Part shown: positions 2,307-42,449 of the stretch, one piece after another
How positions within the stretch are numbered: position 1 is the first letter of the stretch
Layout: each line of letters begins with the position of its first letter
DNA from: a virus
Strand: one strand, 5' to 3'
DNA: 45,209 nt
Virus record (IMG/VR): IMGVR_UViG_3300030118_001920
Coordinates: 1-45,209 of that record
Notes under the pieces: model-generated
Database searches by the model: none
The model's input: the letters and a program-made list of their open reading frames with translations, nothing else
Told to the model about the DNA's origin: nothing
Position numbers and translations under genes: made by a program

Positions 2307-2789
2307 ATGCTAAAAGGCATGTTAAAAAATGTAGTAGGATCAATAGCACCAAGTTTAGGTTCTGCTGTAGGTGGTCCATTAGGCGGTATGGCAACTAAAA
2401 TTATTTGTGAAACACTAGGCTGTAACTCTGATGCTAAATCCATACAAACTGCTATAAACAATGCAAGTCCTGAACAACTATTACAATTAAAACAAGCAGA
2501 AAAAGATTTTGAAATTCGCATGAAAGAACTAGATGTGGATGTATTTAAGCTAGAAGCAGAAGATAAAAAAGATGCTAGAGGTAAGTTTAGTAAAGATTGG
2601 ACAGCTAGAATTATGGGTATTGCAACTGTCGGTGGTTTTCTTGGATATATATTTTTAGTAACACTACAACCACCAGAACAAAACAGTGAAGCATTAATTA
2701 ATTTAGTTCTTGGATACTTAGGGGGATTAGCAAGTGCAGTTATTTCGTTTTATTTTGGAGCATCTAATTCCAGCGATAAAGGAGAATAA
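2307..2789 (+). CDS. holin of the 3-TM superfamily
   Basis: 160 residues with a good AGGAG ribosome site about 9 bases before ATG 2307. The N-terminus has a Gly/Ala-rich segment with GGPLGGMATKI and a conserved LGC. A charged middle follows (KQAEKDFEIRMKELDVDVFK), then DARGKFSKDWTARIM and two hydrophobic helices (IATVGGFLGYIFLVTL and VLGYLGGLASAVISFYFG). This is the pattern of the GTA/phage 3-TM holin family, which permeabilises the inner membrane to release endolysin. The endolysin follows directly. Confidence 0.82.
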   Translation: MLKGMLKNVVGSIAPSLGSAVGGPLGGMATKIICETLGCNSDAKSIQTAINNASPEQLLQLKQAEKDFEIRMKELDVDVFKLEAEDKKDARGKFSKDWTARIMGIATVGGFLGYIFLVTLQPPEQNSEALINLVLGYLGGLASAVISFYFGASNSSDKGE

Positions 2790-2790
2790 T

Positions 2791-3234
2791 ATGAATATAT
2801 CTGGAGAAGGTATTTCTTTAATTAAAAAGTTTGAGGGTTGTGAATTAGAATCATATCAAGATGCAGTTGGTGTATGGACTATTGGTTATGGTCATACTAA
2901 AGATGTAAAAGAAGGTATGACAATTTCTAAAGAACAAGCAGACAATATGTTATTAAATGAACTTGATGAATACTGTGAGCATGTAGAAAAAGCAGTTCAA
3001 GTAAATTTAGATCAATGTCAGTTTGATGCTTTAGTATCATGGACATACAACTTAGGACCAACAAATCTTAATAACAGCACAATGCTAAAAGTATTAAATG
3101 CTAAAGAGTATGAAGAAGTTCCTAATCAAATAAAGCGTTGGAATAAAGCAGGTGGTAAAGTTTTACAAGGTTTAGTAAGACGCAGAGAAGCTGAGGCACT
3201 TTTATTTCAAGGTAAAGATTGGACAGAGGTGTAA
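2791..3234 (+). CDS. endolysin, T4-type lysozyme (GH24)
   Basis: 147 residues from ATG 2791 with GGAG just upstream; a longer frame from 2734 would run back into the holin gene and lacks a ribosome site. The N-terminus shows the GH24 catalytic pattern E-x8-D-x5-T at Glu15, Asp24 and Thr30, in the context FEGCELESYQDAVGVWTIGYGHT with positions 14-36. A C-terminal WNKAGGKVLQGLVRRREAEA segment is typical of P21/T4-like muramidases. It hydrolyses peptidoglycan at the end of infection, after the holin gene just upstream opens the membrane. No signal-arrest-release segment is seen, so export depends on the holin. Confidence 0.92.
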   Translation: MNISGEGISLIKKFEGCELESYQDAVGVWTIGYGHTKDVKEGMTISKEQADNMLLNELDEYCEHVEKAVQVNLDQCQFDALVSWTYNLGPTNLNNSTMLKVLNAKEYEEVPNQIKRWNKAGGKVLQGLVRRREAEALLFQGKDWTEV

Positions 3235-3235
3235 A

Positions 3236-5104
3236 ATGCCTTTTTCTAAATTTGTTTTCAAACCCGGAATAAATAAAGAAGGAACAAACTACTCTAATGA
3301 GGGTGGTTGGTTTGATGCAGATAAAGTTAGATTTAGAAAAGGCAGACCTGAAAGAATAGGTGGTTGGGAGAAAAATTCTGCTAATTCATTTATAGGTACA
3401 GCTAGAAAAATTCATGTATATAAAGATACGAATCAAGCTCAATATAATTTAGTAGGTACACATAAAAAACTATATGTGCAAGAAGGTAATATATTTAATG
3501 ATATTACACCTATTAGATCAACAACTGGTGCAGGAGATGTTACTTTTTCAGCATCTAACGGAGATGCAACACTAACTATCACAGATACAGCACACGGAGC
3601 AGTACAAGGTGATTTTGTTACTTTTAGTGGTGCAGCTACATTAGGTGGAAATATAATAGCTTCTGTTTTAAATCAAGAGTATGAAATAGCTACTATTGTT
3701 AATGACAATTCATATACAGTAGAAGCTAAAGATACTTCAGGATCAACAGTAACTGCAAACTCATCAGATACTGGTAATGGTGGTAGTTCTACTGTTGGTG
3801 CTTATCAAATAAATGTAGGGTTAGATACTTATGTTTCTTCTACTGGATGGGGTGTAGGAACATGGGGTGCAAGTACATGGGGTTCTGCAACAGCATTAAC
3901 TGCTGATAATCAATTAAGATTATGGTCACTAGACAATTTTGGTGATGATGGTTTATGTTTAGCTAGAGGTGGTGCTTTATTTTATTGGGATGAATCATCA
4001 GGTGTTACTACTAGAGCAGTAGCAGCAAGTAGTAGAGCAGGTGCAAGTGATACACCAGTAAAAGCCTTACAAATAATGATGTCAGATGTTGATAGGCATG
4101 TTATAGCATTTGGTTGTAATCCAATAGGTTCAACTACAATAGACCCATTATTAGTTCGTTTTTCAGATGCAGAAAATGCAGTTGATTGGACACCTACAGC
4201 AACTAACTCAGCAGGTGGAGTGCAACTTTCTACAGGCTCACAAATTATTGGAGCATTACAAACAAGACAAGAAATACTTATTTGGACTGATGCAGGTATT
4301 GTATCTATGCGTTTTGTTGGAGCACCTTTTACATTTAGCTTTAATGAGGTAGCAACAGGTATGTCTTTAATATCTCCTAATGCTGTTGCAACAGGGGGTA
4401 ATACAATTTTCTTTATGGATAATGGTGCCTTTTATCAATATGCAGGTTCTTTACAAAGATTGCCTTGTACTGTATTAGATCACATATTCGATGATATTAA
4501 CTTAGACCAAGCATTTAAAATATTTGCAGCACCAATACCACAACACAATGAAATTATATGGTTTTACCCAAGTGCTGATTCTGAAGAAGTTAATAGATAT
4601 GTAACTTATAACTACTTAGAACAATCTTGGACTATAGGTACAACAAGTGATGGATTTACAAGAACAGCATGGAATCCAGCATATATATTAAAACATCCTG
4701 TTGCTGCTGGAAAATTAGATACTACTGATACTAATTATTTATATAACCATGAAGTAGGACATAGTGCTGATGGATCGTCATTCACAGCATTTATAGAATC
4801 ATCAGATTTTGACTTAGACCCTGATGGTGAAAGATTTATGTTTATATCTAAATTAATACCTGATTTACAATATAGAGGTTCAGATGATACTGCTAATACA
4901 GTTAATTTTGTAATTAAAGGTAGAAACTATCCATTAGAAAGTTTATCTACACTACAAACTGTTGCAGTTACGCCTAACTCAACTTTTACAAATACAAGAG
5001 CAAGAAGCAGACAAAGTGCTATTAGAATAGAAAATACAGCAGATAATTTTGGATGGCGATTAGGTGATTTAAGATTAGAACTTAGACAGGATGGCAAACG
5101 ATAA
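3236..5104 (+). CDS. virion structural protein, tail/connector type
   Basis: 622 residues, beginning one base after the endolysin stop. The N-terminus FVFKPGINKEGTNYSNEGGW and the following WFDADKVRFRKGRPERIGGW are characteristic of a virion protein widespread in marine podoviruses. The rest is rich in Gly, Thr, Ser and aromatic residues with many short predicted strands, suggesting a beta-propeller or beta-rich fold. Its place at the head of the tail/internal-protein genes is compatible with a P22 gp10-like connector or tail-stem role. That analogy is inference, not sequence identity. Confidence 0.65.
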   Translation: MPFSKFVFKPGINKEGTNYSNEGGWFDADKVRFRKGRPERIGGWEKNSANSFIGTARKIHVYKDTNQAQYNLVGTHKKLYVQEGNIFNDITPIRSTTGAGDVTFSASNGDATLTITDTAHGAVQGDFVTFSGAATLGGNIIASVLNQEYEIATIVNDNSYTVEAKDTSGSTVTANSSDTGNGGSSTVGAYQINVGLDTYVSSTGWGVGTWGASTWGSATALTADNQLRLWSLDNFGDDGLCLARGGALFYWDESSGVTTRAVAASSRAGASDTPVKALQIMMSDVDRHVIAFGCNPIGSTTIDPLLVRFSDAENAVDWTPTATNSAGGVQLSTGSQIIGALQTRQEILIWTDAGIVSMRFVGAPFTFSFNEVATGMSLISPNAVATGGNTIFFMDNGAFYQYAGSLQRLPCTVLDHIFDDINLDQAFKIFAAPIPQHNEIIWFYPSADSEEVNRYVTYNYLEQSWTIGTTSDGFTRTAWNPAYILKHPVAAGKLDTTDTNYLYNHEVGHSADGSSFTAFIESSDFDLDPDGERFMFISKLIPDLQYRGSDDTANTVNFVIKGRNYPLESLSTLQTVAVTPNSTFTNTRARSRQSAIRIENTADNFGWRLGDLRLELRQDGKR

Positions 5105-7906: not shown

Positions 7907-8403
7907 TAGAAGCAAGTGAGTTGACTAAAAAAATTAAAGAGGATATTAATAAAGTTAATTACAAACCATCTAAAAACTATATTGTTAGTTTAGTTCCCGG
8001 AAATTATGTGCATACTTTATGGGAAGATGTTACACCTTTTTTAGAAAAAGCTGTTGAACGATCTAATGGTAGGTGGAGTTTAGATGCTTTAAAAGTTTCA
8101 TGTGTTGAACAAAGACAAGAGCTATGGGTTATTTTTGGAGAAGAAGATAATAAAATAGTAGGTGTAGCAACAACTGAGTTTGTGCATTATCCTGAAAGTA
8201 AAAGGGTGGCTATACAATATTTAGGTGGGGCTAACTTAGAAGATTGGGCTTGGACTTTTTTAAAGAAAGCAGAGGCATGGGCTATAGACAATAAATGTGG
8301 TGGCATAGAGTGTACTGCTAGATTTGGTTTTTGGAAATGGTTAGGTAAGTCAGGTTGGAATAAGGCTTACACAGTATTTGAAAAGAGGTTTAATAATGAG
8401 TAA
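7903..8403 (+). CDS. GNAT-fold acyltransferase-like virion-region protein
   Basis: 166 residues. The strand-helix order (ELWVIFGEEDNKIVGVATTE, then KRVAIQYLGGANLEDWAWTF, then a helix ending EAWAIDNKCGGIEC and a closing GFWKWLGKSGW) is that of GNAT-like proteins found among podovirus virion genes. A clear acetyl-CoA loop (Q/RxxGxG/A) is not visible, so it may be structural rather than enzymatic. It starts by ATGA overlap at 7903. Confidence 0.6.
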   Translation: MIEASELTKKIKEDINKVNYKPSKNYIVSLVPGNYVHTLWEDVTPFLEKAVERSNGRWSLDALKVSCVEQRQELWVIFGEEDNKIVGVATTEFVHYPESKRVAIQYLGGANLEDWAWTFLKKAEAWAIDNKCGGIECTARFGFWKWLGKSGWNKAYTVFEKRFNNE

Positions 8404-9373
8404 AGGTGGCGGTGGCGGTGGTCCACAAACAACACAATCAACAGTAACACAAACTAATTTACCTGAGTATGCAGAGCCATATTTCACTAGGCTTATGCAA
8501 AGGTCTGAAGCTGAGTCTTTACAGCCTTACAGAACTTATACAGGTCAAAGATTAGCACCTTTAAGTCCTAATGCACAAAGGGTATTAGGCAGACAGACTG
8601 CTTTAGGTTTATCTACAGGACCTCAAGAAACTAGAGATGCTTCTATGATTGCTAGAGATGTTGGTGGTTTATACGAACAAGGTATGCCATCGACTACAAC
8701 AGTTCCTACTTTTTTAGATACAGTTGGAACAGGAGATGAAGCTCAAGGCATAGCATCTATGTATATGGACCCATTTCAACAACTTGTAACTGATATAGAA
8801 AAAAGAGAAGCACAGAGAGCATCAGATATTACTGGTCAACAAATTGAATCTCAAGCAACACAAGCAGGTGGATTAGGTGGATATCGTGAAGCAATCTTAC
8901 AAGCAGAACGACAAAGAAATCTTGCACAGCAAAAAGGAGATATACAAGCTAGAGGATTAAGAGATTCTTTTGCACAAGCACAACAACAGTTTGAAAGAGA
9001 TAGAGCAGCTAGATTAAGACAACAACAAGCTGATGCACAAAGAAGATTAGCTTCTGCGGAACTTCTTGCAAAACAAGGACCGATGCAACAGCAATTAGCT
9101 TTTGATAGATTAAGAGCAGCACAAGAAGCACAAGAAACTGCTAGAAACTTTAGACAAGCAGGACTTGACATTGGTTATCAAGACTTCTTAAACCAAGTAG
9201 CCTTTCCAAGACAACAGCTTGGATTTTACAGTCAGATATTACAGGGCTTACCTGTAACTCCGGGCACACAAGTTTCACAATATCAACCTAGACCTAGTAC
9301 AACACAGCAGTTGTTAGGACTTGGACTAGGTGGCTTAGGACTTTATCAAGCCTTAGGCGGTGGTGGTAGATAA
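8396..9373 (+). CDS. virion protein, Gln/Ala/Arg-rich coiled coil
   Basis: 325 residues from ATG 8396, chosen over a TTG at 8378 because GAGG sits about 7 bases upstream. It opens with a glycine run (MSKGGGGGG). The region YAEPYFTRLMQRSEAESLQP is a pattern I know from podovirus structural proteins. Residues about 140-260 are a long Gln/Ala/Arg coiled coil, and the end is Gly/Leu-rich (LLGLGLGGLGLYQALGGGGR). Likely an internal core or ejection protein, by position between other internal proteins. Start overlaps the previous gene by 8 bases. Confidence 0.62.
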   Translation: MSKGGGGGGPQTTQSTVTQTNLPEYAEPYFTRLMQRSEAESLQPYRTYTGQRLAPLSPNAQRVLGRQTALGLSTGPQETRDASMIARDVGGLYEQGMPSTTTVPTFLDTVGTGDEAQGIASMYMDPFQQLVTDIEKREAQRASDITGQQIESQATQAGGLGGYREAILQAERQRNLAQQKGDIQARGLRDSFAQAQQQFERDRAARLRQQQADAQRRLASAELLAKQGPMQQQLAFDRLRAAQEAQETARNFRQAGLDIGYQDFLNQVAFPRQQLGFYSQILQGLPVTPGTQVSQYQPRPSTTQQLLGLGLGGLGLYQALGGGGR

Positions 9374-9391: not shown

Positions 9392-10615
9392 ATGAACATA
9401 ATACAAGTAGAAGATAATTTAAAATCAATTCCAGACGATAGACTTCAACAAGAAATGTCTAATCCTAGTGGTATGTTTCCACAGTATTTAGTTATGTCAG
9501 AGATTCAACGCAGAACTAAAATGCGTGAGGATTATGAAGGTCGTATGGCAGCAAACGAAAAGACACCACCAAGACCAACCATGCGTGAGGAAATGATGAT
9601 GTCTATGCAACCTACCAATATGCCGAGTGGTGGTATAGCAGATATAGTATCTTCGCAGAGCTTATCCTCCAATCCTGTTATGCCACCAATGGCTCAAAAA
9701 CCTGTAAGGATGCAATCAGGAATGACTGTGCCATTTGATCCGTATGGAATGTATGGGTTTACATTTAGAGAAGATGATCCTGATACAGAAGAAGATGAGT
9801 CAGGATACTTTAGAGAAAAAAGTGAAACTCAAAAAGCATTAGAAGAATATTACAAATTACAATCAGAGTTAATGCCCAAAAAGTTAGATAAACAAAGAAA
9901 ACTTATGGGTGGTCTTAACTTATTACAATCAGGTATAGCTGTTGCTACATCTGCTACACCAGAGCAGATAGGTGCAAACATGAATAACTTAATAAATCAG
10001 ATAGCTAAGACTGAAGATTCTTTACAAAAACAAGAAGATAAGATAGCTAAAACACAAATCGAAGGTCTTGTAGCTGAAGCTGGATTTGAGAGAGCACAAC
10101 GAGAAGATTTAGCTAAAGCTGCTGAGTTGCAACTGAAACGAGAAAAAGAAGAAGCAACAGCAGAATACATGAGAGGTCTTGGAGATAAAACAAGTCCTGT
10201 AGGTAGAATAGCTGATGAAATAAAAGCAGGTAAATTTGGACCAATAGAATCTCTTGATATTTATACTGTTGATAAAAATGGAAATAAAGTAATTGATCCT
10301 AAAAAATTATTAGACTTAGCAACTACATATCAATCTAGTATTGGTGCTGCTGGTATTAGAACTTATGGAAGTAAAGAAGAAGAACTAGCTGCTACTGTAG
10401 CAGAACAAATGGGATCATTTGCAACTCGTATGGAAATTAATAATCTTGTTAAGGAAGGTATGTCTGAAGAAGATGCTTACAATAAAGTTTATAACAATAT
10501 TGTAGCGAAACAAAGCCAACTGTTAGGTATTACTCCTCAAACAAAACAAACAGGCGGTGTTATTCAAAGTTCTGTGCAAGACTTTAATGATGTTATAGAG
10601 AGTATAAGTGCCTAA
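9392..10615 (+). CDS. internal virion protein candidate, 407 aa
   Basis: The N-terminus (QVEDNLKSIPDDRLQQEMSN followed by PQYLVMSEIQRRTKMREDY) is a pattern I recognise from podovirus internal proteins. A Met/Pro-rich linker occupies about 55-125, a moderately hydrophobic stretch (LMGGLNLLQSGIAVATSA) lies near 170, and long charged helices follow. It lies directly before the giant polyvalent protein and overlaps it by 8 bases, so the two are likely co-translated and co-packaged. Its only upstream signal is the palindrome at 9375. Confidence 0.62.
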   Translation: MNIIQVEDNLKSIPDDRLQQEMSNPSGMFPQYLVMSEIQRRTKMREDYEGRMAANEKTPPRPTMREEMMMSMQPTNMPSGGIADIVSSQSLSSNPVMPPMAQKPVRMQSGMTVPFDPYGMYGFTFREDDPDTEEDESGYFREKSETQKALEEYYKLQSELMPKKLDKQRKLMGGLNLLQSGIAVATSATPEQIGANMNNLINQIAKTEDSLQKQEDKIAKTQIEGLVAEAGFERAQREDLAKAAELQLKREKEEATAEYMRGLGDKTSPVGRIADEIKAGKFGPIESLDIYTVDKNGNKVIDPKKLLDLATTYQSSIGAAGIRTYGSKEEELAATVAEQMGSFATRMEINNLVKEGMSEEDAYNKVYNNIVAKQSQLLGITPQTKQTGGVIQSSVQDFNDVIESISA

Positions 10616-13600
10616 GTATGTTCAAACAGATGATGGCTTAATACATGAGTTACCTGATTATGTAACTGATGATAATTATCTTGTAGAAAAAGAAAACTTT
10701 TTAAATCAATACAATCAACCTAAGCCTGAAGTATCTTCATTAGAAACAGACTTTATAGATGATGAAGATATAGAACGCAGTTCATTGCTTGACATAGCAA
10801 GAAGTGGTTTTTCTAGGGAGTTTGTTCAAACTCCAGCACAAAAAGACCTTTATAAAGTAGCACCTAAATATGCTAATGCTACAGAAGAACTTCAAACTTT
10901 ACTTGAATTACCAGTTCTTAATACAGAACAAAAAGATAGGATTGAAGAACTAAATAAACAGATACAAGGTGAAGATAAAAGTCCTGAAGAAATTTTACAA
11001 GACATAGCAAGAGAAAAAAAATTTCAAAAAAGAGACCCAACATTTAATGAAATAAAAAATGAGCTAGAAAAAAGACAAGGTTTAGAAAAAACTGTTCAAC
11101 AAAAAGTTGATATTATAAATCAAAGTCAGAAGTTTCAAGATCAAATAGTTTACTCAGATTCTTTTAATCAATTAGCAGAAGCTGAAAGTGCAGGTGAAGC
11201 ATTTGAAACTTTTAAGTCTGATCCTTTTAATTTAATAGGTCAAGTAACAGCTACCAGTTTAGCACCTATGTCTAAAAGTTTAGCTGCTGGTGTGTTGACT
11301 ACAGCATTTTTAGGTCCAGTAGCAGGTGCAGCAGCAACAGGTATTACATCTGGTTCTGTAGATGCAGCACATTCTTTTACTGAGTACATGGTAAAGAAAG
11401 GCATGAATCCTAGTGATCCTGAATCAGTTGCTAGGTACATGAGTGACAAGAAACTAGTATCAGAAGCTGAAAAGTATGCAAGAACTAGAGGTGCAATCAT
11501 AGGTTCTTTTGATGGTTTATCTTTTGGGTTTGCTACTAAATTAATGGCACCTAAAGCCATATCTAATATTTTTGCTAGACAAGCAATGAACTCATTAGTT
11601 ACTCAACCTGCAATACAAGGTACTTTAGGTGGTAGTGGTGAATACTTTGCACAACTTGCTACCTTAGAAGAAGGAGAAGAAATAAGAGTTGGCGATGTAG
11701 CTATGGAAATTATAGGGGAGTTTGGTTTTGCCCCTGCTGAAGCTGCATTTGGTCAAATAGCTGCTGGTCGTCAATATTCACAAGAAGCTCAAAATTTAAA
11801 AGCAGAGGAACAATTAAGAATAACAATAAATTTTTATAATACTTTGCAAAGAGGTCAATTAGAAGGTGCACCTCAAAACGATATTATTAAGCTACTAAAT
11901 TTAGTTGAATTAAAAACTACTAATAATATTAATGCAGGTCAAAACCCAATAGAAGCTAGAGCTAATGCTGTTAATGAGGTTAATGAAAGATCAGAGTTAG
12001 TTGAGGCTTTAAATATATATTCTAATTATACTAACAAAGGACAAAATCCTGAGCAGTTTCCATCAAAAATAGTTACTCCTGATGTAACAGTTCCCAATAT
12101 ATTCCTTACAAAACAATTAGCAGACGGCACTTTTACTATTGTTGATTATCAAGGTAATTCAATAAGTGATCCAAATACAAATGAAACATATAGCTATCCT
12201 TCATTAGAGGTAGCAGGAAAAGTAGTAGCATCTTTAAATTTGTTATCACAAACACAATATGGTGTAGAAAAAACTAATGATTATATTGAGATGCAAAATC
12301 TTGATCCTGCTAATCCTTTTATATCTAACTTAGGTCAAGCATTTTCAAATCCATTTTATGATGGAATAAGCATACAAGAATTAGAAAGTATTGGAGTTGC
12401 ACCTGATGTAATTAAAACTATTACAGATGCAACAGGTAATAAACTTCAAGTTCCAATTAGTGTATTAAAAGATAATTTATCAAAGAAACAGTTTGATAAA
12501 ATTATGACTACAAGAAGTGAAAGCGGTATTCTTGGAGAAACTCCTTCACCAAAAAGTATTACAGAAGCTACCTTTAAAAAATTATTTAAAGATAAAAATG
12601 TAGAGTTTGATGTAAATAGCGATGCTTTTAAACAGTTAGCTTTACAATATACTGCCGAAACAGATATTAATAAAATGAGTATTGCACAAAAAAGAGTGCT
12701 GTATTCTGTTATTAATAGACTTCCTAGCTCACCAGAGCTTATCTCGTTGCCTGATTTTTCAAACAGGTCATACTCCCTTAATGATTATTACAAAGCCTTA
12801 CAAGCAATTACAGAAACAAGTAAGCCTACTCTAAAAACTATTAGAGAAGCTACTGGTTTAAATAGTGTTGCTGCAAAAAGACTAAGACAAGACTTTATTA
12901 CTGCTGGTTATGTAGAAGAAAAGAATGGAAAGTTTAAGTTTAAAGGTACAGGTAATAAAAAATTTACTGATGAAGGTGTATTAGTAGATGAAGAAACACT
13001 AGAGGTTAATCAAGATTTAGATAATTTAATAGAAAGTTTTAGAAAAAACTTACCGCCTGAAGTTGGAATTAAGTTTGAAAAATATATTAGAGATCAACAA
13101 GGTAATATTAATAGAGATGCAGAAGGTGCTTTTAATCCTGTATTTAATGAGATTATTGTAGCTATAGACAGAGCAGGTTTAGATTTTAAAAATAACCCTG
13201 AACAATCTTTAAATGATTTAGCAAGAGTATTAGGTCACGAATCATGGCACTCTCTTAGACAAGCTGATGTATTTACAGAAGAAGAGTACAACACTTTAGT
13301 AAATTATGTGCGTAATACAAAGCCAAAAAATAGTGATAAAACATATTATGAGTTAGCTTTAGAAGAATATGGTGGCAGACCAGAATATGATAATGAAGCC
13401 GATATTATAGAAGAAGGTATCGCTAAAGTTTATGAAGATTACATAGACAATAAAAAAAATGTTACAGGCAGACCTGCTTCAATATTAAATAAGGTTAGTA
13501 AATTTTTTGAAAGAACAGTTAATGCTTTAAATGAAAATGGATTTCAAACTGCTAATGATATTGTTGAAAGAAGTTTAAGTGGCAAACTTGCAAATAGAGA

Positions 13601-16600
13601 AACAGGCAAAGTTAGAACAACATTAGAGTTAGATAGAATAAGAACTAAGTTTACAGAAATTAATGATAGTGCAATTAACTTAGGTTTTGATATTAATAGT
13701 GAAGATGATGCACCATTATCTGAAAGACCAATAGAAGATGCACCTACTTTAAAGTATAAGTTTAGAGAGGATTTGCTAACTAACCCACCAAGAATATACA
13801 CAGAATATATTGCGGGTGTTGAGGATAATCAGTTTACTGAGGACATGAGTGCATGGGTAAATCTAATGTATCAGAATCCTAATGTGTTAAATGAATATTT
13901 AATTAAAAGAAGATTTCCAACAGCAGATAGAAATGGATTAAGAGAAATTAGTCAGACTGCATATGAAGCTACTCAAGATATATTAAGAGATGAAGCTCGT
14001 AGTAAAAATAATGGTAAAAAAGTATTTTACTTTGTTGGTGATATTCCAACTGGAGATACAGTTGCTGTAGCTTATGATGATCAAGCTGAGGCTATTAGAT
14101 CAGCTAGGTTAGGCGATAGTCAATATCATTCTTTGTCAGGTAATCCTAATCAAATAAGAATAGTTGAATTAGATTTTAGTGATGTTTTATTTCACCCTAA
14201 GTTAATTAATATAACTGAAAAACCAACCATAGCAAATCCCTATAAAAAGAAAGGTTTATTTGGTGTTAGTGCAACTGCATTAAAAATAAAAGCAGGAGAG
14301 TCAATACCTGTAAAACCAGTTATAGGTCCATCAACTACTAAGTTAAGTCTTGCTAGAACAGAGGGAAGAATAACACCTCAAAAAGAAATTGAATTAGTAA
14401 CACGACCTAAGTTTGTATCTGCTGATGGCAGGACTGTTCGTAGAATAGAATGGGGTGCTTTGCCAGATAAATATCGTGATGAACCTGAAGGCACATTAAT
14501 TAGTGAAGTTATAAGACAAGCACAAGAAGCAGGATCAGACCCAATAGCTGCTGTATTAGAAAATGATGAATCTTATTTTATAGAAGAATTAGGAGTACCA
14601 CAGTGGAAAACTATTGATGTAGAAAGATTGCAAGAAGATATTAAATTTATTACAGAAGAAACATTAAGTAATTTTCCAGAACAAATAGTTGTATATCGTG
14701 GTAGTGCTATTAAAGATAAGTATGATTTAGTTCCTGTAACTTTTGATCGTAGAGTTGCAGAAGCATTTTCTCCTAAAGATACAGGAGATTTTATATTTGA
14801 TCAAAGTGATCCTGAGTCATCAGCAGCCCAAGAAGTTAAAGAAGGAATAGTTGCAGAGGATGGTAGTGTAATTGAATATGTAATACCTAAAGATAAAGTT
14901 TTAGCTTACATAAATCCAATAATGACAGGTGGTTATGATTTTGATGTAACAGGAAGTTTAGGTAAACAATATGATTTTTTTAATGAAGGTGAACTATTAG
15001 TTAATAAAAAAGATTTAATTGAACTTGGTCGCCCTGTAGAAAGAATTGGACCAAGATTTAAACAACAACTTTATAATAGAGTTAAGACTGCTAAAGAACA
15101 AGCAAGATCAATTTTAAATCAAAACTCTATAGACTTTCTTTTAGGTGGTCCTGTATTTACTACAGAACTTGCGAGTGATGATGTATATAACTTATTAGTT
15201 AGACAGCTTGGTGCAAAATTAAAGAACTTATCTAACAGAAGATTAAATCGTGATGAACTTATTAAGTTACTAACGGACAGTGCATTAATAGAAGCAGAGA
15301 ACAGAGTTTTTGCTCAAGAAGAAACAGCAAAAATGGTTAAAGGAGAAATTAAATCTGATAAATATTTTGATGATGAGTTAAAAGCTAGAAAAGATAAATA
15401 CTTGCCACAGTTAATTAAGAAAGCAGAGGATTATGCAGAAGGAGTTGTTAATGCAGATCGTAAAGCGGTAATAGCTATAGGTTTACCAGCATCAGGTAAA
15501 TCTCATTTTGCAGAAAAGATTGCTAAAAAAATTGGTGCATCAATCGTAGATTCAGATGATGCAAAAAAAATCTTGCCTGAATATGGAGATGGTTTAGGTG
15601 CTAATGCTGTAGCTGTAGAATCTAGTTCTTTATTTAAAGATGTTTTAGAAAGTCAAATAGAATTAGGTAATAACATTGTTATACCTAAGGTTGGTGGTAC
15701 AAGTAAAATGAAGTCTATAATTTCTACCATAGATAATCTTAGAAATAATTATGGTTATGATGTAGATGTTATATTAGTGGATGCAGACTTTAATAACTCT
15801 ATTACTAGAGTTTTAAATAGATTTGTTGAAACAGGAAGATATATACCTAGTAGCTATTTAATTGATGTTGAAAATACACCAAGAGATACATACAATAATT
15901 TAAAAAATGAATATGGAGATTTAATAAACTTTGTATTTGTAAATAATAACTTTGGTGTAGGAGAGCAAACACTTGAAGAAGATACCTCAAGATCATATCA
16001 GTACCTTGCAAAAAGAAGAAGCGTTGGAGTTGGCAATGATGAAATTACTATTCAACAAGAACAAGAACAAGATTCAGAAACCAAACGACTTCTCCAAAAA
16101 GCAGAAGCTGAAAAACAAAAGTCAATAGAAGCAGGTGTAAGACCTGTCATTAACACAGGGGCAAACCCTGATGCTGTAGCAGCAGCAGTAAAAGCACAAG
16201 AAGATATAAAGAATACACCTTCAGCAGAGTCTGCTGATATTAATTTTATTTTTAGTGATATAGGTCAAGAAAACAAGATTAAGTATTCTTTTAAAAATAG
16301 TGGTAAACCTTTAAAAGCAGAAACAGAAAGAATAGTTAAACGATTAACTGTTAGAGATAACACACCTGATGATGTAACTGTAGGTCAAAGAGTTTTAGAA
16401 ACATTAAAAGGCTTTTGGAATCCAATGGGTTTTAGACAAGAGATACTAGATCAGTATGCAAGATTAGCAGATACAGATTATGTTGCAGGAGAAATATCTG
16501 GTGTTGGTGATGAAATGTTATCTGCATCTGTGTCAGCAGCAGCAGCTTTATATCATTCAGATAGATCAGGAGATATATTTCAACAGTCTTTTTTAAGAGG

Positions 16601-18980
16601 TGTTCCTGTTTATAACAAAGAAAAAGGTTATACCACAGTTGTTGATGTATCGCCTCAAGATGGTCAACCTATTGTAGCACCATACGAAATATTTAAAGAA
16701 GCAATTAACAATCCCAATATGCTTTGGGCTTTTCAGGCTGTATTAAGAGTGCAAAGAGAAACTAGATTTGATGCAGAAGGTAGAAAAGTAAAAATAACTG
16801 CACAAGATAAGAAAGATGCAGAACAAGCATTAAAAGATTATCCACAACTACAAACCATGATTGATCAGTATCAAACATGGAACTCACATATTGTTAGATT
16901 CCTTATAGATACAGGAGTCTTGGATGAAAAGACAGGTAAGATTTGGATGGAAACATCAGACTACATACCTTTTTATAGACCACTTGAAGGCATGGAAGGA
17001 TTTAAAGGTCCTAAGATATTACAAGGTTTATCTATTACACCATTTAAGAGAGCAAAGGGTAGTGAGGAAAAAGATATTGTTGATCCAATTACAGGCATAA
17101 CTAACAATCTTAGAGCAGCAATAAACTTAGGTATGAAGAATGTTGCAGCAAATAGAGTAATGCGTAACTTACAAATTCTTGGTGTAGCAGAGCAAGTTAA
17201 GGGTAATGTTAAAGGACCAAACATAGTTCAGATAAAAGTAAATGGTAAAACTACATCATGGAAAGTTGATGATCCTGATTACTTTAATGCGTTTACTATA
17301 ATGACAGGTGGAGATTTTGCACCTACAGGTCTTTTAATGGGTGCATTACGAGGAACAAAACAACTTGTATCTGACTTTATTACAAGACTGCCTGACTTTT
17401 GGTTTAGGCAAATACTTAGGGACTCTGTATCAGCATGGACTCTAAGTGGTGCAAACTATACTCCTGTTATTAGTTCTTTAAAAGAAACAGTAAGCATAGC
17501 TGTTGGTTTAGCTACAGGTAATTTGCCAAAAGAATTTAAACAGTTAAGAGATTCAGGAATTATTACAGGATATGATCAAGGTGTAAGACAAATAGATACC
17601 ACAGAAAAACTAGTTAATAACCTGTATAAGAAAGAGGTTAAAAAACAAAGGTCAACAGTTAAGAAAATAATGATGGCACCTTTTGATACTCTTGCAAAAG
17701 TGTGGGAAATATTAGGGCAAGGTACAGCTATTACTGATGCAGCAACAAGAGTCGCTGTTTATAAAGATGCTCTTAAAAGAACAGGCAATGAAGCAGAAGC
17801 TATATTTCAAGCTATGGAAGTTTTAAACTTTACAAGGCGTGGTAATAATCCAGCTTTTCAATTTCTTGCACAAACAACAATGTTTTTAAATCCAAGAATA
17901 CAAGGACTTGATGTATTTTATAGAGGTTTAACAGGTAAATATGGTGTAGGTAGAGGTTTATCACCAGCTAAAAGATTAAAAAGTGTATTTCTTAGATTTG
18001 CAGGATTAATTTCTTTAGTACCTTATTACTATTTATTAGTTAGAGATAGTGAAGAATACGAAGAAGCACCTGAAGAAATTAAAGATAATTACATAATTAT
18101 TCCCGGAACTAAAAAACTAACAGGAGAAACGATTGCTTTACCTAAGCCATTTGAAGTGGGTTTACTTGCATTTACTATTCCCGAAAGACTTATGGCTTAC
18201 ACTATGGATGATATAGCAGGTAAAGATGTCACCGATAGTTTAAAAAGAAACATAAGCACTACGCTTTCTATCACACCACCTACATTGGTAGAACCATTAA
18301 TAGAAAATTATTTTAATTATGATTTCTTTACAGGTAGAAAAATAGTTCCGTCATACTTAGAGGGTACAGATGACTTGGCTTATCGACCAAGTACAGACAC
18401 CCTTTCAAAAGTTGTGGGTGATGAATTAAATATTAGTCCTCTTTACATAGAAAATCTTATTCGTGGATACTCAGGATCAATGGGAACTTATGTAATGCAG
18501 GGCGTTGATTCTATGTTAAGAGAAGGTTTAACAGGATCAGAGAGGGCTAGTTTGCGTGTCGATCAACTTCCTGTTGTTGGGGCGTTCACATTACCACCTG
18601 AGGGGCGAGGTATTGAAAATCAATTCTATGATCTTAAAGGCATGACCGATGATCTAGTGCAGTCATTTAGAAAACTAGAAGATGATGTTATGGATAGGGG
18701 TGATACATTTGCAATAGGCATGGCTAAAGAATACCGAGTTGAATACTACGATGCGTTAAAAGATTTACAATCCCAGCTACAAGAAACTGCCGACTTACTA
18801 AAAGAAGCTAGAAACTTAGAGGCTATAACAATCAATGATCCCAATCTATCTCCAGACGAGAAACGAGATAAACTTGTAGAAATACAAGACGCTAAGAATG
18901 AGATTTTGAAAGCAGAACAAATACCAGAGTTAAGAAAGTTCTTCATAGAGGATTTTAAACCTCAAGCAGTCCAGAGATAA
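10608..18980 (+). CDS. giant polyvalent virion protein (HExxH, ART-like, P-loop kinase-like, LPD38-like regions)
   Basis: 2790 residues from GTG 10608. A hydrophobic Gly/Ala-rich segment lies near 215-262 and a winged-helix-like segment near 738-782 (IREATGLNSVAAKRLRQDF). A metallopeptidase-like motif HESWH is at 877-881, with downstream acidic candidates Glu930, Glu935 and Glu936. An ADP-ribosyltransferase-like region runs from VYRG with Arg1364 through AEAFSP near 1387 to Glu1460-x-Glu1462 (FFNEGELLV). A Walker A motif GLPASGKS at 1625-1632 with VDSDDAKK resembles zeta-toxin-type kinases. The C-terminal third, about 1900-2600, with LNFTRRGNNPAFQF and a membrane-like helix near 2460, resembles the LPD38 domain of large polyvalent proteins. 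Such proteins are packaged and ejected with the DNA. Activity of each module is inference. Confidence 0.85.
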   Translation: MPKYVQTDDGLIHELPDYVTDDNYLVEKENFLNQYNQPKPEVSSLETDFIDDEDIERSSLLDIARSGFSREFVQTPAQKDLYKVAPKYANATEELQTLLELPVLNTEQKDRIEELNKQIQGEDKSPEEILQDIAREKKFQKRDPTFNEIKNELEKRQGLEKTVQQKVDIINQSQKFQDQIVYSDSFNQLAEAESAGEAFETFKSDPFNLIGQVTATSLAPMSKSLAAGVLTTAFLGPVAGAAATGITSGSVDAAHSFTEYMVKKGMNPSDPESVARYMSDKKLVSEAEKYARTRGAIIGSFDGLSFGFATKLMAPKAISNIFARQAMNSLVTQPAIQGTLGGSGEYFAQLATLEEGEEIRVGDVAMEIIGEFGFAPAEAAFGQIAAGRQYSQEAQNLKAEEQLRITINFYNTLQRGQLEGAPQNDIIKLLNLVELKTTNNINAGQNPIEARANAVNEVNERSELVEALNIYSNYTNKGQNPEQFPSKIVTPDVTVPNIFLTKQLADGTFTIVDYQGNSISDPNTNETYSYPSLEVAGKVVASLNLLSQTQYGVEKTNDYIEMQNLDPANPFISNLGQAFSNPFYDGISIQELESIGVAPDVIKTITDATGNKLQVPISVLKDNLSKKQFDKIMTTRSESGILGETPSPKSITEATFKKLFKDKNVEFDVNSDAFKQLALQYTAETDINKMSIAQKRVLYSVINRLPSSPELISLPDFSNRSYSLNDYYKALQAITETSKPTLKTIREATGLNSVAAKRLRQDFITAGYVEEKNGKFKFKGTGNKKFTDEGVLVDEETLEVNQDLDNLIESFRKNLPPEVGIKFEKYIRDQQGNINRDAEGAFNPVFNEIIVAIDRAGLDFKNNPEQSLNDLARVLGHESWHSLRQADVFTEEEYNTLVNYVRNTKPKNSDKTYYELALEEYGGRPEYDNEADIIEEGIAKVYEDYIDNKKNVTGRPASILNKVSKFFERTVNALNENGFQTANDIVERSLSGKLANRETGKVRTTLELDRIRTKFTEINDSAINLGFDINSEDDAPLSERPIEDAPTLKYKFREDLLTNPPRIYTEYIAGVEDNQFTEDMSAWVNLMYQNPNVLNEYLIKRRFPTADRNGLREISQTAYEATQDILRDEARSKNNGKKVFYFVGDIPTGDTVAVAYDDQAEAIRSARLGDSQYHSLSGNPNQIRIVELDFSDVLFHPKLINITEKPTIANPYKKKGLFGVSATALKIKAGESIPVKPVIGPSTTKLSLARTEGRITPQKEIELVTRPKFVSADGRTVRRIEWGALPDKYRDEPEGTLISEVIRQAQEAGSDPIAAVLENDESYFIEELGVPQWKTIDVERLQEDIKFITEETLSNFPEQIVVYRGSAIKDKYDLVPVTFDRRVAEAFSPKDTGDFIFDQSDPESSAAQEVKEGIVAEDGSVIEYVIPKDKVLAYINPIMTGGYDFDVTGSLGKQYDFFNEGELLVNKKDLIELGRPVERIGPRFKQQLYNRVKTAKEQARSILNQNSIDFLLGGPVFTTELASDDVYNLLVRQLGAKLKNLSNRRLNRDELIKLLTDSALIEAENRVFAQEETAKMVKGEIKSDKYFDDELKARKDKYLPQLIKKAEDYAEGVVNADRKAVIAIGLPASGKSHFAEKIAKKIGASIVDSDDAKKILPEYGDGLGANAVAVESSSLFKDVLESQIELGNNIVIPKVGGTSKMKSIISTIDNLRNNYGYDVDVILVDADFNNSITRVLNRFVETGRYIPSSYLIDVENTPRDTYNNLKNEYGDLINFVFVNNNFGVGEQTLEEDTSRSYQYLAKRRSVGVGNDEITIQQEQEQDSETKRLLQKAEAEKQKSIEAGVRPVINTGANPDAVAAAVKAQEDIKNTPSAESADINFIFSDIGQENKIKYSFKNSGKPLKAETERIVKRLTVRDNTPDDVTVGQRVLETLKGFWNPMGFRQEILDQYARLADTDYVAGEISGVGDEMLSASVSAAAALYHSDRSGDIFQQSFLRGVPVYNKEKGYTTVVDVSPQDGQPIVAPYEIFKEAINNPNMLWAFQAVLRVQRETRFDAEGRKVKITAQDKKDAEQALKDYPQLQTMIDQYQTWNSHIVRFLIDTGVLDEKTGKIWMETSDYIPFYRPLEGMEGFKGPKILQGLSITPFKRAKGSEEKDIVDPITGITNNLRAAINLGMKNVAANRVMRNLQILGVAEQVKGNVKGPNIVQIKVNGKTTSWKVDDPDYFNAFTIMTGGDFAPTGLLMGALRGTKQLVSDFITRLPDFWFRQILRDSVSAWTLSGANYTPVISSLKETVSIAVGLATGNLPKEFKQLRDSGIITGYDQGVRQIDTTEKLVNNLYKKEVKKQRSTVKKIMMAPFDTLAKVWEILGQGTAITDAATRVAVYKDALKRTGNEAEAIFQAMEVLNFTRRGNNPAFQFLAQTTMFLNPRIQGLDVFYRGLTGKYGVGRGLSPAKRLKSVFLRFAGLISLVPYYYLLVRDSEEYEEAPEEIKDNYIIIPGTKKLTGETIALPKPFEVGLLAFTIPERLMAYTMDDIAGKDVTDSLKRNISTTLSITPPTLVEPLIENYFNYDFFTGRKIVPSYLEGTDDLAYRPSTDTLSKVVGDELNISPLYIENLIRGYSGSMGTYVMQGVDSMLREGLTGSERASLRVDQLPVVGAFTLPPEGRGIENQFYDLKGMTDDLVQSFRKLEDDVMDRGDTFAIGMAKEYRVEYYDALKDLQSQLQETADLLKEARNLEAITINDPNLSPDEKRDKLVEIQDAKNEILKAEQIPELRKFFIEDFKPQAVQR

Positions 18981-42059: not shown

Positions 42060-42449
42060 ATGACAGAACCTGCAAAGGATACTCAACCCAAAGAGGTTGA
42101 AGCAACAGACAAAGCTAAACAACTCCCTGTTCCAAAGGGTTACAAAATTCTAATCGCATTACCCGATATAGAAGAAACTACCAAAGGTGGAATTATTAAA
42201 GCATCTGAAACTCGTAGAGTGGAAGAAGTTGGTTCTATCGTTGGGTTTGTTTTAGAAATGGGTGATGATTGTTATCAAGATAAGAACAGATTTCCAAATG
42301 GTCCTTATTGTGAAAAGGGCGATTGGATTATTATGCGTTCTTATTCAGGCACTAGATTTATGGTGCATGGAAAAGAATTTCGTTTAATTAATGACGACAG
42401 TGTAGAAGCTGTTGTTCAAGACCCAAGAGGAATAGTAAAGGTAATTTAA
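42060..42449 (+). CDS. GroES-like co-chaperonin
   Basis: 129 residues with AAAGGAG upstream. PVPKGYKILIALPDIEETTK with GGIIKASETRRVEEVGSIVG and later CEKGDWIIMRSYSGTRFMV follow the Cpn10 pattern: the mobile loop region, the beta barrel and the closing GD-Y-G strand. It likely caps host GroEL to fold the capsid protein, as T4 gp31 does. Located between portal and scaffold genes, next to its probable client. Confidence 0.88.
   Translation: MTEPAKDTQPKEVEATDKAKQLPVPKGYKILIALPDIEETTKGGIIKASETRRVEEVGSIVGFVLEMGDDCYQDKNRFPNGPYCEKGDWIIMRSYSGTRFMVHGKEFRLINDDSVEAVVQDPRGIVKVI

Follow-up and report, generated by a model that had tools for sequence, protein, structure and literature searches.

A phage polyvalent protein combining an ADP-ribosyltransferase-like module and a zeta-toxin-like kinase on an LPD38 chassis

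The polyvalent proteins described by Iyer in 2017 (PMC5512222) carry 2–15 unrelated domains per chain, are built around a zincin hub, include LPD38 and FtsK-type winged helix-turn-helix domains and are predicted to be delivered together with DNA; LPD38 is listed there as limited to phage-type polyvalent proteins. JC1 gp69, a Bcep22/JC1 DarB-like protein of 4515 residues with LPD38 near its end (4195–4401), closes the virion block of its genome and is represented by 51 unique peptides in CsCl-purified virions (PMC9144972). Here we describe P0001, a giant protein of an environmental phage. It is encoded within a 45.2 kb window (the whole stretch of DNA analyzed) that has a G+C content of 36% and comes from the IMG/VR virus record IMGVR_UViG_3300030118_001920, 56 kb in length. 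P0001 shares the listed features with the 2017 polyvalent proteins, the zincin at the level of its motif, and, like gp69, is giant and LPD38-ended, but its cargo differs from that of gp69 (transglycosylase-like, methylase-helicase and LPD3). What sets it apart from the 2017 proteins is an R-S/T-E-type ADP-ribosyltransferase (ART)-like module and a zeta kinase jointly on the LPD38 chassis, which is a new architecture in a known class. We favor the reading that P0001 is a phage-type polyvalent protein with exchangeable cargo on a conserved LPD38 chassis and is probably ejected into the host, which would widen the range of ART types and kinases carried on such proteins.

10608–18980, + strand: giant polyvalent protein P0001, 2790 residues (unbroken open reading frame (ORF) translation; relatives in viral contigs 47–86% identical)

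Domain map of P0001

The P0001 gene starts with GTG at 10608, where close relatives have ATG at the equivalent place, and its stop codon ends at 18980. Translation verified the unbroken frame and the three motifs that a first-pass annotation, made from the sequence alone, had placed in it: HESWH at residues 877–881, R1364 followed by E1460-x-E1462, and the Walker A motif GLPASGKS at 1625–1632. In shuffles of the protein, HExxH arises in 0.3%, the R...[ST]..A..F...ExE signature in 0.7% and a Walker A alone in 8.8%. We found relatives of the giant protein in 12 viral contigs and more distant ones in further scans, and none in the bacterial genomes searched. Variation of the motif residues in close relatives, which the same annotation had named as grounds for rejecting its reading, was looked for and not seen, as the catalytic residues are invariant in 13–17 relatives. 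The modules ahead of the C-terminus are as follows.

12771–12947, + strand: FtsK-gamma-like winged helix, residues ~722–780, putatively DNA-binding (AlphaFold2 (AF2) model against 2ve8)
13053–13577, + strand: zincin-like metallopeptidase, residues 816–990, with HESWH 877–881 and E936 (residue invariance)
13755–14327, + strand: module X, residues ~1050–1240, fast evolving, with no assigned fold; either present or missing as a unit, and absent in relative L009
14475–15077, + strand: ART-like module, residues 1290–1490, with R1364, T1378, A1384, F1387, E1460 and E1462 (residue invariance; signature test)
15396–15977, + strand: zeta-toxin-like kinase, residues 1597–1790, with Walker A at 1625–1632 (Pfam Zeta_toxin; solved zeta toxin 1gvn)

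Because a Walker A motif is common in shuffles, it is weak evidence alone, and the kinase is instead settled by a match of Pfam Zeta_toxin (PF06414) to residues 1619–1771 (E 1.5e-12; 47.8 bits against a gathering score of 22.3). The profile of the module also finds the zeta toxin 1gvn in the PDB at 3.2e-5, and 17 sequences share 33 invariant positions, including G1625, G1630, K1631, S1632, D1648, D1650, R1734, R1738 and R1744. The module shares the Walker A motif, a D-x-D-D-x-K-K motif and conserved arginines with zeta toxin and PezT kinases, differing from them in that it sits within a giant, probably ejected protein, and the profile comparisons confirm the kinase-like assignment made earlier. 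In line with the favored reading, we observed a zeta-toxin kinase fused to a portal protein (Phage_portal_3) in L061 (7994–10615) and L064 (4866–7421), which may be another route for a kinase into the virion, as well as a chain in L062 (8645–15916), open at the contig end, that combines a zeta kinase, DdrB-ParB and an SNF2 helicase. This kinase type is also present in a head protein of cyanophage PSS2.

The ART-like module has the same order of motifs, R ... S/T ... A..F ... ExE, as T4 Alt, ModA and ModB. Although identity over the whole module falls to 23–41% in distant relatives (24% for the lowest sequences in the invariance set), 20 of its 201 positions are invariant in 13 sequences, and these include G1365 and all six residues listed above. 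The residues of the R-S-E class (strand-1 Arg, S/T-x-S/T, A..F and E-x-E) are conserved, but P replaces the leading S of the STS motif. A signature designed to cover T4 ModA and ModB, R-[8-60]-S/T-A..F-[30-115]-ExE, matched those two proteins, a further three phage members of that ART family and the present family, with no other hit among 790 non-redundant ORFs (310,205 residues); as the pattern was written after the sequences had been seen, this is supporting and not independent evidence. T4 Alt is packaged and injected, and the T4 enzymes are separate proteins, whereas the module described here is part of a giant, probably ejected chain.

In the zincin-like module, H877, E878, H881 and the downstream glutamate ligand E936 are invariant in 16 sequences. 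Upstream of it, an AF2 model of residues 690–1291 matched FtsK gamma (2ve8) in Foldseek with prob 1.00, TMt 0.78–0.80 and a root-mean-square deviation of 1.4–1.5 Å over ~56 residues, the E value of 0.28 reflecting that only these ~56 of 602 residues match; on this model, residues ~722–780 are an FtsK-gamma-like winged helix predicted to bind DNA. In BFVD, this model also gave alignments of ~530 columns to two unnamed viral proteins at 1e-5. P0001 therefore unites at least two unrelated domains in a single polypeptide (the zeta kinase and LPD38 recognized through Pfam, the FtsK-gamma winged helix by fold, the zincin by motif), within a virus record and next to an ejection protein. Three enzyme-like modules and an LPD38 C-terminus on a single chain had been proposed at first pass and hold, LPD38 at the level of Pfam; the winged helix, module X and the recurrent linkers described below had been overlooked.

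The C-terminal chassis, modular cargo and a recurring linker

16308–18977, + strand: C-terminal chassis, residues 1901–2790, with LPD38 at 2482–2657 (Pfam LPD38; phrog_9854/18222)
8378–9373, + strand: DNA ejection protein (phrog_4287), in the same order in all relatives tested
9392–10615, + strand: 407-residue protein directly upstream of the giant gene, kept in all relatives tested

The C-terminal 890 residues are the part of P0001 most conserved against distant relatives (47–68%), and LPD38 within them matches its Pfam family at E 7e-31 (108.2 bits against a gathering score of 27). This C-terminal module is common to 51 of 56 matched phage records at 23–28% identity, among them phages of Planktothrix, Escherichia (PTXU04), Aeromonas, Vibrio, Bacillus (the Page group), Achromobacter and Pelagibacter; against solved ejection proteins it gave no match. 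Ahead of the shared C-terminus other phages carry other cargo: DdrB-ParB and a methylase in phiARM81mr, a helicase in Vibrio phage D274, and a pyrophosphatase with LPD3 in CF418P1. The large polyvalent protein of Planktothrix phage Pag-Yong1 (UMO75972; 27.8% identity in the C-terminal module) has two HExxH motifs and a sub-threshold match to ART-PolyVal, which is of the other (H-Y-D) type, and no zeta kinase match.

The giant gene ends the + strand structural and ejection block and is the last and largest gene of the DNA-ejection cluster, and the order ejection protein, 407-residue protein, giant gene is kept in 11 relatives. Given this gene order, the restriction of LPD38 to phage-type proteins and the presence of JC1 gp69 in virions, it is likely, by analogy, that P0001 is packaged in the head and ejected with the DNA, as had been suggested at first pass.

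The region upstream of the chassis is made of exchangeable cargo modules, as both module X and the ART-like module are lost cleanly as units. Relative L009 has the ART-like module and the kinase and lacks module X, with a gap exactly between linkers 1 and 2 (below), whereas L046, L048 and L068 have the zincin, X and the kinase and lack the ART-like module as a whole; the remaining full-length relatives read keep zincin, ART-like module and kinase together. Module X is among the fastest-evolving parts of the protein. It looks by eye like a degenerate second ART, but hhalign against the ART-like module, run with controls, gave a probability of 0.2, and we do not claim this relationship.

Three of the module borders carry a linker that follows the pattern P-x-[LIV]-K-[YF]-[SK]-[LIF], with the short core K-[YF]-S-[LF].

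13743–13766, + strand: linker 1, PTLKYKFR, residues 1046–1053, border of zincin and X (linker comparison)
14334–14357, + strand: linker 2, TTKLSLAR, residues 1243–1250, border of X and the ART-like module (linker comparison)
16272–16295, + strand: linker 3, NKIKYSFK, residues 1889–1896, border of kinase and C-terminal part (K-Y/F-S in all relatives)

We built a score matrix from site 3 alone and ranked ~2,700–3,050 windows per protein. Site 2 came first in L010, L014, L021, L023, L035 and L043 and second in L008, that is, top or second in seven of nine full-length proteins with both sites, and site 1 ranked 2nd–8th in about half of those seven; these ranks are not probabilities, since the relatives are not independent. 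The matrix performed more poorly in L034 and in P0001 itself (site 1 2nd, site 2 25th). Column entropy is 0–1.1 bits in the linker cores versus 1.2–2.0 in the flanks. In L009, where X is absent, the left half of site 1 runs directly into the right half of site 2, and proteins of the L046 type still have a linker copy, LKPKYKMS, after X. A border motif repeated beside a metallopeptidase suggests a candidate cut site. That polyvalent proteins are processed by a metallopeptidase of their own was suggested in 2017 (PMC5512222), in a text in which a search for the recurrent linker found no description of it, and no cut site is named in the literature examined; with a conserved linker between modules, the idea becomes simple to test.

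Competing readings of the modules and their delivery

The mechanism we propose begins with a chain that would be packaged in the head and ejected into the cell with the DNA. Its built-in metallopeptidase would then split this chain wherever a K-[YF]-S-[LF] linker stands, either in the head or after entry. Judging from family membership, the ART may modify host proteins or nucleic acids and the kinase may phosphorylate a sugar-nucleotide or nucleotide. A role of the giant protein in host takeover or counter-defense, as suggested at first pass, is conjectural, and zeta kinases have another known role (below).

Several results weigh against an ART at residues 1290–1490. The AF2 model is poor (pLDDT 68.6) and a Foldseek search with it was empty; no Pfam, NCBIfam or PDB profile matched the module, which by profile does not fall within the R-S-E class; and hhalign against the T4 Mod family was not significant, the best local segment being in register (column-shuffle P 0.03 local, 0.35 global). 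In addition, the spacing from R to T is 14 residues versus about 25 in ModA and ModB, and searches of phages, viral contigs and genome contigs gave no homologue beyond the family itself. The YRG / T / ExE pattern might on these grounds be a coincidence in some other alpha/beta fold particular to this family, but we consider this unlikely, because the six diagnostic residues are among so few invariant positions, their order and context are those of T4 ModA (VVSASYDKNIALHFASG vs VVPVTMDQTIAEDFASG in L010), and the signature was specific in the ORF scan. An ART thus seems to us a good deal the better supported assignment, although the module is called ART-like and not filed as an ART because fold and profile comparisons did not confirm it; of the earlier claim, the R1364...ExE1460 arrangement stands and the ART fold does not yet. 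For the kinase, the question is one of substrate. The known role of zeta kinases is phosphorylation of a cell-wall precursor, and an enzyme that acts instead as a polynucleotide, nucleotide or tRNA-repair kinase opposing RNA-cutting defenses would be consistent with weaker matches to Pnkp (1.5e-3) and to the phage polynucleotide kinase phrog_505 (6.6e-5), and with similar zeta domains in haloarchaeal viruses, whose hosts have no murein. Zeta_toxin nevertheless leads all other Pfam families by six orders of magnitude, and among solved structures zeta toxin matches best; in our view, such an alternative kinase is a minority option.

The weakest step of the proposed mechanism is self-cutting at the linkers. 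The zincin gave no profile match to MPTase-PolyVal (PF18818), nor to any other Pfam, NCBIfam or PDB profile, and Foldseek returned no zincin from a model of moderate confidence, such that HESWH with its conserved third ligand is what stands of the metallopeptidase called at first pass. Among distant LPD38 proteins, equivalents of linker 3 near the expected place were seen only in PTXU04 (MQYS) and phiARM81mr (KKFS), 2 of 7, which is too weak to claim. We therefore offer only tentatively that K-[YF]-S-[LF] is a built-in metallopeptidase cleavage site, splitting the chain into ART, kinase and DNA-binding/peptidase pieces and letting effectors be reshuffled between linkers. The metallopeptidase might instead be a genuine effector whose target is a host protein cut once the phage DNA has entered, with the linkers as no more than flexible spacers for folding or channel passage: effector use of such peptidases is allowed for in the 2017 survey, and N4 vRNAP, ArdC and TraC1 are delivered uncut (PMC5512222). 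We hold this to be the less likely reading, as at each of the three borders the core of the linker is conserved while its flanks vary, and phage P1 DdrB, whose domain is of this kind, undergoes cutting before it is packaged (PMC5512222). The first-pass view of the metallopeptidase as a third effector accordingly gives way to that of a putative enzyme more likely to process the giant protein itself. Finally, P0001 could be a regulator that is neither part of the virion nor ejected, as the proteomics that speak for packaging come from JC1 gp69, another LPD38 protein. With its gene closing the structural and ejection block beside an ejection protein, we regard this as very improbable.

Other features of the window

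11208–11867, + strand: Gly/Ala-rich hydrophobic segment of P0001, residues 201–420, with one transmembrane-like stretch at 224–247 (hydropathy scan)

This N-terminal segment is 35–51% identical in distant relatives. Elsewhere in the window, a 224-residue protein (527–1201, + strand) matches phrog_3704 (ferredoxin, auxiliary metabolism class) and has no Pfam match. Inside the endolysin gene, 43 bases at 3144–3186 are 93% identical to Lactococcus phage endolysin genes, the only nucleotide-level match to known phages in the first 25 kb. Just after the portal gene lies a GroES-type co-chaperonin (42060–42449, + strand; Pfam Cpn10, 30.4 bits versus 21.1), for which T4 gp31 is a comparable head-assembly co-chaperone.
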